Source: Natrialba chahannaoensis JCM 10990
GTDB lineage: Archaea; Halobacteriota; Halobacteria; Halobacteriales; Natrialbaceae
Assembly: GCF_000337135.1 (NCBI RefSeq)
Contig: NZ_AOIN01000034.1
Coordinates: forward strand, 1-64,000
Direction of reading: 5' to 3'
DNA length: 64,000 nucleotides
A program made the translations under genes and the position numbers. The notes under the pieces are model-generated. The model made no database searches, was not told the DNA's origin, and was given only the letters and a program-made list of their open reading frames with translations. Below, one piece after another: positions 59,450 to 63,624 of this stretch; within the stretch, counting starts at the first letter, position 1, and each line of letters opens with the position of its first letter.

Positions 59450-61552
59450 TCAGTTCTCGAAGCGCGCCTGCACAAACGGCTGGATATCGTCGATATCCGA
59501 AAGTCTGGAATCAGAGAGCAGTACCGCCTCCGTCTCGTCGATCGGCACCGAGAGGCTGATCTCCTTCGTTCGGCCGTAGCGGCCCTTCGAGACAACAACT
59601 GCGTTGACGATTCCGAGCATGTCGAGTTCGCTGATCAAGTCCGTCACACGGCGCTGTGTGAGGACATCGGCGTCGATCTCCTCACAGAGACGCTTGTAGA
59701 TGTTGAACACCTCGCCCGTGTTGATGCTGTGGACGCCGTTCTTCTCGAGAAGGATGATCGCGAACAGGACCAGTTTACTCTGGGTCGGAAGGGTGCGGAC
59801 GACCTCAACGACGCGGTCGAGTTCGATCTTGTCCTGCGCCTGGCGGACGTGCTCTTCGACGATGGTTTCGGCCTGCGAGCGTTCCGCGAGTTCGCCCGCC
59901 GTCCGAAGGAGATCGAGTGCGCGACGTGCGTCCCCGTGTTCCTGTGCAGCAAAGGCCGCACACAGCGGGATGACGTCTGCAGACAGCGCGCCCTCTTTGA
60001 ACGCGACCTCGGAGCGGTGCTGGAGGATGTCACGCAGCTGGTTTGCGTCGTACGGCGGGAAGACGATTTCCTCCTCGCCCAGACTGGACTTGACGCGCGG
60101 GTCGAGGAAGTCAGTAAACTTGAGGTCGTTCGAAATACCGATGATCGAGACGCGGGAGTTCTTGAGTTCAGAATTCATCCGCGAAAGATTGTAGAGCGTG
60201 TCGTCACCGCTCTTCTCGACGAGTTTGTCGATTTCGTCGAGCATGATAACGACCACCCGCTCGTCGTAGTCGACAGCGTCGAAGAAGACGCTGTAAACAC
60301 GATCCGTGGGCCACCCAGTCATCGGTACCTCTTCGAACGAGTCCTTGTCCTCGCGCAGGGACTCGATCCGTGTGTCAATGTCGGCAACCGATTCGAAAGC
60401 AGTGTCCTCGAGTGGGTGAACTGACTGATTCACAGCGTCGTTTCCGTACCCCTCTTGTTCGACTGGAGGTTGCGAACTATTTGCCTTCTCAGATCTAGTC
60501 CGACCGGAGTCGTTTCCAGTCGAAATGTCGCTGTGATGTTCAGAGTTGGACTGAGGTACCGACGGAGAACTGGTGGTATTTTCCTGCTCGGACGCCTCGT
60601 TGTACGTCTCCACTTGCTCGCGGAGCGTCTGCAAGGACTCGATTTGGTCGTCGATTCGCGCCTTGTTCTTCTCGATGAATTTGTTCGCGAGCTGTGCGAG
60701 GACGCGATACTGCGTGTCGGTCACCTCACAATTGATGTACTCGACATCACACGGGACGCTATACTTCTGGGAGGTGCTCTCGAGTTCCTTGCTGACGAAC
60801 TTCGCGCTCGCAGTCTTTCCGGTCCCGGTTTTCCCGTAGATAAGGATGTTTGACGGTGTTTCACCCCGAAGCGCGGCGACCAGAATGGTTGCCATCTTGT
60901 TGATCTGGTCGCTTCGGTGCGGGAGTTCGTGTGGCGTGTACGACGGCCGAAGGACTTCCTTATTTTCGAAAATCGGTTCACCACTCAGGAGATCGTCAAA
61001 CAGCCCCTGGTTTGACTCTTCGCCACTATCGCCGAGTTCGGTGTCGCCGAAGTCAGTCGAAAAACCGTGTGTGTTGTCGGTGTTAGAAGGAGTGCTGTCG
61101 GTACTGGAACGTGTGCTACCGGCGTCTACGTCGGCATCAGGGCTGCCACCATCGGTGTCGGCAGACGTTCCAGTATTGGTAGAACTCGAGTTGGGAGTCG
61201 CCGAACTTGGTGTTGTGTCGGTTCCGGTGGAGGGTTGGTTGGTTCCGGAAGGTGTTTGCTCAGTCGGTGTTTGCTTAGCAGATGTTTGCTCAGCCGATAG
61301 CGGACCAGTGGCTGTCGGATCAGAGGATTGCGAATCTTCCGCAGCGGTTGTTTCAGCGGCAGTGTTCCCGGTTGGTGAGTTGGTTGGTTCGTCATCTGGA
61401 CTTGCGGCCGGATCCGAATCACGGTTCGACTTCGAGGGCGATGATAAGTCCGTCTGCTGAGAAGAACGGTCGCTGTCCGTGAAATCATTCTCCTCTGAGT
61501 TCATCCCTGTGTCCGTGTTCGAACCTGTTTGTTCCGTTTCGTCGTCTGACAT
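59450..61552 (-). CDS. orc1: Orc1/Cdc6 replication initiator, enlarged form
   Basis: 700 aa, against about 400-415 for the usual family member. Residues 1-185 are Ser/Thr/Asp/Gln-rich and disordered, with a 15-bp tandem repeat in the DNA. The AAA+ core then runs from Walker A GKTGTGKT (240-247) through Walker B VVVIMLDEID (433-442), sensor I IGISND (471-476) and sensor II GDARRALDLLR (540-550). A second disordered insertion (about 315-385) separates Walker A and B. The winged helix ends at 700. It sits directly beside the origin and is its probable initiator. Confidence 0.95.
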   Translation of the reverse strand: MSDDETEQTGSNTDTGMNSEENDFTDSDRSSQQTDLSSPSKSNRDSDPAASPDDEPTNSPTGNTAAETTAAEDSQSSDPTATGPLSAEQTSAKQTPTEQTPSGTNQPSTGTDTTPSSATPNSSSTNTGTSADTDGGSPDADVDAGSTRSSTDSTPSNTDNTHGFSTDFGDTELGDSGEESNQGLFDDLLSGEPIFENKEVLRPSYTPHELPHRSDQINKMATILVAALRGETPSNILIYGKTGTGKTASAKFVSKELESTSQKYSVPCDVEYINCEVTDTQYRVLAQLANKFIEKNKARIDDQIESLQTLREQVETYNEASEQENTTSSPSVPQSNSEHHSDISTGNDSGRTRSEKANSSQPPVEQEGYGNDAVNQSVHPLEDTAFESVADIDTRIESLREDKDSFEEVPMTGWPTDRVYSVFFDAVDYDERVVVIMLDEIDKLVEKSGDDTLYNLSRMNSELKNSRVSIIGISNDLKFTDFLDPRVKSSLGEEEIVFPPYDANQLRDILQHRSEVAFKEGALSADVIPLCAAFAAQEHGDARRALDLLRTAGELAERSQAETIVEEHVRQAQDKIELDRVVEVVRTLPTQSKLVLFAIILLEKNGVHSINTGEVFNIYKRLCEEIDADVLTQRRVTDLISELDMLGIVNAVVVSKGRYGRTKEISLSVPIDETEAVLLSDSRLSDIDDIQPFVQARFEN
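60448..60527. other. ORB-like inverted pair inside orc1
   Basis: Left element (60448-60471) accCCTCTTGTTCGACTGGAG; right element (60511-60527) gtTTCCAGTCGAAATG. The cores are inverted and face each other, 40 nt apart, in the DNA coding for the inserted linker (residues about 342-366). The right one lacks a G-run. Weaker than the origin boxes. Confidence 0.4.
61253..61300. repeat. 15-bp tandem repeat in orc1 5' part
   Basis: Three units related to gTGTTTGCTCAGTCG encode the SAEQT / SAKQT / PTEQT series in the disordered N-terminal arm of Orc1. Confidence 0.75.
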
Positions 61553-62242: not shown

Positions 62243-62269
62243 CCCCCCACCCCTTCGTTTCAACTGGAG
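62243..62269 (-). other. Origin recognition box, left
   Basis: CCCCCCACCCCTTCGTTTCA then ACTGGAG; on the minus strand this is CTCCAGTTGAAACG-AAGGGG plus a G-run, the haloarchaeal ORB pattern bound by Orc1/Cdc6 winged helix and AAA+ domain. G-run points away from the AT-rich centre. Confidence 0.85.
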
Positions 62270-62301
62270 AGGGCCGAGAGAGGGGGTGGGGAGGGGGACT
62301 T

Positions 62302-62694
62302 CTAGAACGACTGGATTTATAATGATGGGTGAGAAATACGGACCGTACCACTAGCAGATTGATGTTTTTACTAGAGGAGTTAGTTTTATTGCTAGATGAT
62401 ACTAGATCTGATCCTCTCAAAGAGATCTGTTACTAGACCTCTCGAACCTCGTGTTTTCTCCCGAGATACCCTCTGTATTCCCGTTCGAGATGAAATAATG
62501 GCCGCTAACACTATCCACTCCCCAGTTGTCCACCCCACCCTTGCCGCTCGCTCCAGTTGAAACGAAGGGGTGGGGGTGTTCAGAACACGCCGTGTCTCCA
62601 CGACATTTCCGAAATCTGACTCCCTAGAACTAGTCTAGAGCATTCTAGTATTCGTTAGTTGCATCTAGTGACCCATGATAAATATTGTCTCTAG
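62302..62694. other. CTAG-rich segment of the origin
   Basis: CTAG occurs at 62302, 62351, 62371, 62392, 62402, 62433, 62624, 62630, 62635, 62645, 62665 and 62691. CTAG is normally strongly avoided in haloarchaeal genomes, so twelve in 393 bp is remarkable. Six lie between the ORBs and six beyond the right ORB. Confidence 0.8.
62551..62576 (+). other. Origin recognition box, right
   Basis: CTCCAGTTGAAACGAAGGGG then TGGGGG: a 26-nt perfect inverted match to the left ORB, 282 bp between the inner edges. Confidence 0.85.
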
Positions 62695-62985: not shown

Positions 62986-63624
62986 ATGGGACTGTTCACA
63001 GAACTCAAAGATAGTATCTCTCGGGTTACGGACCGCCTGTTCTCCGAACAGGAACCCAAACGAATCGGTATCTATGGTCCACCGAACGCTGGAAAGACGA
63101 CGCTCGCAAATCGGATTGCCCGGGACTGGACCGGCGATGCAATCGGTACTGAGAGCCACGTTCCACACGAAACGCGGCGCGCGCGCAGGAAAGAAAACGT
63201 CGAGATCGAACGTAACGGCAAGACCGTGACGATCGACATCGTCGACACACCTGGTGTCACGACGAAAGTCGACTACGAGGAGTTCACCGACGAAATGGAA
63301 GAGGACGATGCCATCCGCCGTTCTCGTGAGGCGACCGAAGGCGTCGCCGAGGCCATGCACTGGCTTCGCGAGGATGTCGACGGCGTCATCTACGTCCTCG
63401 ACAGCGCGGAGGACCCGATCACGCAGGTTAATACGATGTTGATCGGCATCATCGAGTCCCGGGATCTACCGGTTCTCATCTTCGCGAACAAGATCGATCT
63501 TGACGACTCGAGTGTCAAGCGCATCGAAGACGCGTTCCCACAGCATAAGACGATCCCGCTGTCCGCAAAGGAGGGTGAGAATATGGACGAAGTCTACGAG
63601 AATATCGCGGAGTACTTCGGGTGA
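62986..63624 (+). CDS. oapA: Origin-associated GTP-binding protein OapA
   Basis: 212 aa Era-like small GTPase. G1 GPPNAGKTT, G3 DTPG, G4 ANKIDL and G5 PLSAKEG are intact; the switch region is embedded in TRRARRKENVEIERNGKTVT. In haloarchaea the three oap genes follow the main origin; OapA is described as GTP-binding, with no essential function assigned. It is 7 bp apart from the next gene, so they are co-transcribed. Confidence 0.93.
   Translation: MGLFTELKDSISRVTDRLFSEQEPKRIGIYGPPNAGKTTLANRIARDWTGDAIGTESHVPHETRRARRKENVEIERNGKTVTIDIVDTPGVTTKVDYEEFTDEMEEDDAIRRSREATEGVAEAMHWLREDVDGVIYVLDSAEDPITQVNTMLIGIIESRDLPVLIFANKIDLDDSSVKRIEDAFPQHKTIPLSAKEGENMDEVYENIAEYFG

Follow-up and report, generated by a model that had tools for sequence, protein, structure and literature searches.

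The replication origin of Escherichia coli, oriC, contains dense GATC sites that are methylated by Dam (m6A) and controlled by SeqA, and DnaA-box arrays and plasmid iterons are likewise made up of repeated sites. For the DnaA boxes of E. coli, whole-turn changes in spacing are tolerated, while part-turn changes are not (PMC4285127). It is already known from Blow et al. (2016) that CTAG clusters occur at haloarchaeal orc1/cdc6 starts and correlate with an orphan CTAG methyltransferase (PMC4752239, Fig. 6D). Ouellette et al. (2018) found the CTAG density of H. volcanii to be raised only at oriC2 and doubted its role (PMC5867850). Apart from ORBs and G-rich repeats, the determinants of unwinding and helicase loading in haloarchaea are poorly known. 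In the literature consulted here, only Sulfolobus offers a non-ORB motif whose protein has been described: ucm lies in the unwinding element, is bound by UBP, and is essential for origin activity (PMC12141716).

The locus analyzed here lies in a 64-kb stretch of DNA, hereafter called the window, and is assigned to oriC1 of a Natrialba species, its close relatives by GTPase identity being Natrialba species. As the original prediction had stated, it is an origin, with inverted ORBs located between an orc1/cdc6 initiator gene of the oriC1 type (59450 to 61552, minus strand; Pfam Cdc6_C, E = 1.9e-32, Cdc6_lid, E = 2.3e-30, and AAA) and an Era-like GTPase gene forming the oriC1 border (62986 to 63624, plus strand; Pfam MMR_HSR1, E = 3.3e-14). 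The left ORB with its G-string, CCCCCACCCCTTCGTTTCAACTGGAG (62244 to 62269, minus strand), is one arm of a 43-nucleotide inverted repeat that is 84% complementary, and it is conserved in the Natrialbaceae alignment. The other arm, the right ORB with its G-string, CTCCAGTTGAAACGAAGGGGTGGGGG (62551 to 62576, plus strand), was identified from the inverted repeat, the alignment, and a best-match search. As in other oriC1-type origins, the inverted ORBs with their G-strings flank an AT-rich region, and an orc1/cdc6 gene adjoins. Between the ORBs, an inner G-rich stretch belonging to a repeat (62280 to 62299, plus strand) is comparable to the G-rich inverted-repeat enhancer of Haloarcula hispanica oriC1 (PMC3936714), and a mini-ORB, TCGAGATGAAA (62485 to 62495, plus strand), represents a degenerate third ORB.

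Two further elements precede the CTAG sites discussed below. A T-rich TATA-like block, TTTATAAT (62316 to 62323, plus strand), corresponds to conserved TTTAT alignment columns, and a core box, GAGAAATACGGACCGTA (AGAAACARTATCCGYA in relatives; 62331 to 62347, plus strand), was recovered in every haloarchaeal group where the ORB-anchored search gave a result. The core box (AACARTAYCCG) is located 67 to 74 bp inside the left ORB in the majority of the other haloarchaeal origins examined, its Halorubrum counterpart being the related AACAGTACCCTCGACAA, and TTTATTA stands some 22 to 25 bp before it in most haloarchaeal oriC1 examined. The core box has the appearance of either an additional origin element or a promoter. 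By stability, the segment carrying the array ranks in the lowest ~1% of the window. Its single strands fold no better than shuffled sequences and no Rfam match was detected within it, ruling out a folded single strand or a known RNA.

The 12 CTAG sites announced by the original prediction are indeed present within 393 bp (62302 to 62694), at positions 62302, 62351, 62371, 62392, 62402, 62433, 62624, 62630, 62635, 62645, 62665, and 62691. They lie in and beside the ORB-bounded core as described, one group (62302 to 62436) between the ORBs and the other (62624 to 62694) outside the right ORB, and several share the context ACTAGA. The expected avoidance of CTAG was also borne out, with 46 occurrences in the window against 114 expected from dinucleotide shuffling. 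From the CTAG rate elsewhere in the window, 0.22 sites would be expected in the cluster, which is thus enriched 55-fold, and no other 393-bp window of the stretch contains more than 3. Dinucleotide shuffles of the 393 bp gave a mean of 2.4 and never more than 8 CTAG (n = 5,000). Equally AT-rich windows elsewhere (GC of at most 46%) average 0.96, so that neither chance nor simply relaxed AT-rich DNA, one of the alternatives initially considered, explains the cluster. No other 4-bp palindrome was comparably enriched within it, the runner-up being TATA (2.4-fold, one copy). The CTAG cluster in the main replication origin is therefore confirmed.

Across the draft genome (4.3 Mb), clusters were counted by a pattern of three CTAG with gaps of at most 30 bp rather than by single CTAG, which returned 20 matches, 7 of them at oriC1. 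Three matches fall in a second cluster and one in a third, both upstream of other orc1/cdc6 homologues (contigs C77 and C91). Clusters away from orc1/cdc6 starts are mostly found inside reading frames or at scattered intergenic positions; four are within long reading frames and one adjoins another cdc6 homologue at its 3′ end, and not every cluster therefore marks an origin. The second orc1/cdc6-adjoining origin, on contig C77 (L181:5227-5275), carries five CTAG boxes, mostly ACTAGA or ACTAGT, in one orientation and outside the 10.4-bp layout described below. The GATC control pattern returned zero matches in genera g2 and g7 (genomes G001 to G006, G013, and G014) and several in other genera, which suggests that GATC is avoided in these two genera.

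Alignment of the arrays shows the inner CTAGs, from 62351 to 62433, to be the centers of five directional boxes on the same strand, with the consensus TTACTAGA. All are read on the plus strand: E1, the variant CACTAGCA (ACTAGCA; 62349 to 62356), occurs in 80 of 86 arrays and E2, TTACTAGA (62368 to 62375), in all 86, while E3, TTGCTAGA (62389 to 62396), E4, ATACTAGA (62399 to 62406), and E5, TTACTAGA (62430 to 62437), were defined by the array alignment and logo. Exact TTACTAGA occurs in 12 copies genome-wide, including E2. In the logo of 86 distinct arrays, which were picked on CTAG alone and not on flanking bases, the flanking T-T-A and A are 70 to 100% conserved in most boxes. Successive boxes from E1 to E5 are separated by 20 to 21, 20 to 22, 10, and 31 to 32 bp, corresponding to one, two, or three helix turns, and the best period of these spacings is 10.25 to 10.4 bp, a fit that random placement would seldom give (P = 6e-5 to 3e-3). 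An extended motif is thus directly repeated on one helical face, as in a phased binding-site array. A sixth CTAG, E0 (TTCTAGAA; 62302 to 62305, plus strand), stands 49 bp before E1, out of helical phase, and is retained in many, not all, relatives.

Orthologous origins were located through the bordering Era-like GTPase gene, which was found in 124 of 125 family genomes, and in those compared directly the inner CTAGs keep their spacing. The signature CTAG-N6-CTAG-N26-28-CTAG was detected in 90 of 125 Natrialbaceae genomes (82 of the 111 near-complete ones, 22 of 29 genera), usually as one copy per genome, at oriC1. A looser box pattern matched 75 of 101 family genomes and 8 of 290 outside the Natrialbaceae. 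Conservation of the cluster in orthologous origins thus held within this family, but the cluster is absent from most other haloarchaeal families examined. Several Natrialbaceae (Halovivax, Natronococcus, and others), like other families, also lack the array or have it rearranged, and it is therefore not universally needed. In Natronococcus sp. A-GB7, the phased array is replaced by dense CTAG between the ORBs, including CTAGCTAG doublets. In one genus (g24, genomes G110 to G117), oriC1 lies far from the GTPase gene that usually borders it while the layout between the ORBs is retained, indicating a rearranged neighborhood in which the array was kept.

The two halves of the cluster differ in evolutionary depth. 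The outer group of six CTAGs (62624 to 62694, minus strand) was followed in an alignment of six Natrialba. Its trio at 62635, 62645, and 62665, with spacings of 10 and 20 bp, whose distances from the start of the ORB are 84, 94, and 114 bp, is common to four N. magadii-like genomes and missing in N. aegyptia and N. asiatica. On the minus strand, 62645 and 62665 read ACTAGA. Judging from the alignment, the outer group is younger than the inner array, and in the N. magadii-like clade it may form an additional, divergent array. The original prediction had seen the shared contexts of the sites but missed their phasing, their orientation, and the differing depth of the two halves.

The array is further tied to the right ORB by its distance. 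To the best-matching right ORB, chosen with spacing disregarded, E5 lies at 116 to 119 bp in 19, 126 to 130 bp in 36, 137 to 139 bp in 12, 148 to 150 bp in 16, and 170 bp in 1 of 84 distinct origins; an incomplete contig (L055) without a proper right ORB was excluded. The classes thus center on ~118, 128, 138, 149, and 170 bp, and the gaps between them are empty. Where recognized, the mini-ORB follows the last box by ~53 bp, and it precedes the right ORB by 64 to 66 or 74 to 76 bp in relatives, with few exceptions. The linker is otherwise mostly unconserved apart from a GAATTC-like word and the mini-ORB itself (TCGAGnYGAAA). Because relatives are not independent samples, the linker was evaluated by counts of changes. 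The GTPase tree, which represents one gene and has many weak branches, requires a minimum of 13 changes of total length class; for the class of the mini-ORB-to-ORB distance, the minimum is 8. By our own arithmetic, the chance that 13 changes of arbitrary size would all fall in windows of at most 5 of every 10.35 bp is ~7e-5. Taken across these origins, the comparison shows that the array-to-right-ORB distance shifts only by whole helix turns. The left ORB-to-array distance, at 122 to 127 bp, has a half-turn spread without gaps, and strict phasing is therefore confined to the right side.

As the original prediction expected, the genome encodes a CTAG methyltransferase homologue (contig C70:21106-22194), with 57% identity to the Haloferax enzyme and 48% identity over 92% to a protein on the methanogen plasmid NC_001337, which we take to be pFZ1, the matched protein presumably being MthZI. 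The methyltransferase is encoded in 111 of 111 near-complete Natrialbaceae and therefore cannot explain why some of them have the array and others do not. Of 30 Halorubrum genomes, 6 encode it, and oriC1, taken there from regions beside orc1 since the GTPase gene often does not adjoin it, contains 0 to 1 CTAG with the enzyme (n = 6) and 0 to 2 without (n = 14). Presence of the cluster thus does not track presence of the enzyme in Natrialbaceae, nor in this small sample of Halorubrum oriC1. CTAG carries m4C in Natrinema pallidum (PMC12160562), and by analogy, the CTAGs of oriC1 are probably m4C methylated as well.

Conserved boxes across most Natrialbaceae, together with their helix-turn spacing, point to a putative protein on one DNA face. 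We consider it reasonably probable that the array represents same-face sites at which a putative origin protein works together with Orc1 within the unwinding region. This sequence-specific protein would bind the row of boxes cooperatively on one helix face and, with Orc1/Cdc6 on the ORBs and the mini-ORB, would form a stereospecific complex that promotes or controls opening of the weak segment and helicase loading, while m4C on the CTAGs could modulate binding or melting. Against this same-face reading, the array is not universal, the left ORB distance shows no comb, E0 is out of phase, and part of the +20 bp length steps, which accompany an added sixth box, could arise by repeat duplication. 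Slippage between repeated boxes, rather than selection on helical phase, might accordingly have produced the quantized lengths, but the 65-to-75-bp steps between the mini-ORB and the right ORB contain no CTAG boxes and still recurred, so that slippage has only a slim chance of being the explanation. The DNA-bending or unwinding device proposed originally overlaps with the same-face protein and is still a candidate. In its protein-free form, phased flexible TA steps would bend or open the segment, perhaps aided by histones or nucleoid proteins, which would agree with the helical phasing of CTAG and the low stability of the segment. Phased TA steps would suffice for such a device, which has no need of eight conserved oriented bases nor of whole-turn spacing to a distant ORB, and the shuffle-level folding also speaks against it; we regard it as improbable.

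A methylation timing system in the manner of SeqA and Dam, in which hemimethylated m4C sites would let a sensor block re-initiation until remethylation, finds backing in the universal methyltransferase of near-complete Natrialbaceae, in the methylation of CTAG in N. pallidum, in the correlation reported by Blow et al., and in the other orc1/cdc6-adjoining clusters of this genome. However, the conserved flanks (TTA-CTAG-A) are asymmetric and not needed for methylation alone, 29 of the 111 near-complete genomes keep the enzyme without the array signature, Halorubrum oriC1 CTAG counts are alike with and without it, and H. volcanii strains lacking CTAG methylation are viable (PMC5867850). A search for a SeqA homologue (PF03925) found none in the genome, while the E. 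coli control matched, and the Dam/SeqA label was rejected. Given the longer box and its helical spacing as well, the simple seqA-like switch suggested at first is unlikely, and on these comparisons methylation alone does not account for the array. A more elaborate proposal, in which a dedicated putative Natrialbaceae protein reads TTACTAGA rows, senses m4C, and couples initiation to remethylation together with Orc1, is doubtful; it would, if true, constitute an independently evolved archaeal counterpart of SeqA control. Finally, the boxes could be repressor or activator sites, with TTTAT and the core box as the promoter of an origin transcript, as might be indicated by the conserved TTTATA-like block that precedes the core box by ~25 bp. 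Since no gene starts just downstream, Rfam gave no match, and the boxes lie inside the ORB pair with a spacing that follows the right ORB, such operators are very unlikely.

With same-face sites of a putative origin protein as the preferred reading, the phased array and its whole-turn distance to the ORB are evidence from natural variation for a stereospecific initiation complex, and they bring the missing protein within reach of DNA affinity methods. The array also makes it possible to test concretely a proposal, now a decade old, in which CTAG methylation controls archaeal replication. The box architecture appears to be new in its orientation, phasing, and ORB-linked spacing: no description of phased boxes was found in the openly accessible article texts searched. 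The clusters of Blow et al. (PMC4752239) involve the same word, kind of place, and methyltransferase family, and CTAG enrichment next to orc1/cdc6 and a methyltransferase homologue are both present here. Nevertheless, that report, in the part available, deals with density only, with no box beyond CTAG, orientation, helical spacing, or relation to ORBs, and some genomes have retained the enzyme but lost the array signature described here. Haloarcula hispanica oriC1 likewise has inverted ORBs, G-strings, an AT-rich region, and an adjoining orc1/cdc6 gene, but CTAG goes unmentioned in its description (PMC3936714), the box array being mainly a Natrialbaceae feature. Like the GATC sites of E. coli oriC, CTAG is a dense short palindrome and the target of a methyltransferase, whereas here the box is longer and oriented, the modification would be m4C instead of m6A, and no SeqA homologue was detected. 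DnaA-box arrays and iterons share with the array repeated sites and tolerance of whole-turn changes (PMC4285127), yet the box here is short, unlike the ORB, and its protein is putative. Compared by description, the array resembles the ucm motif of the ucm/UBP system in being a conserved non-ORB motif within an unwinding element between ORBs, with a phased row of five boxes in place of a single 11-bp motif.
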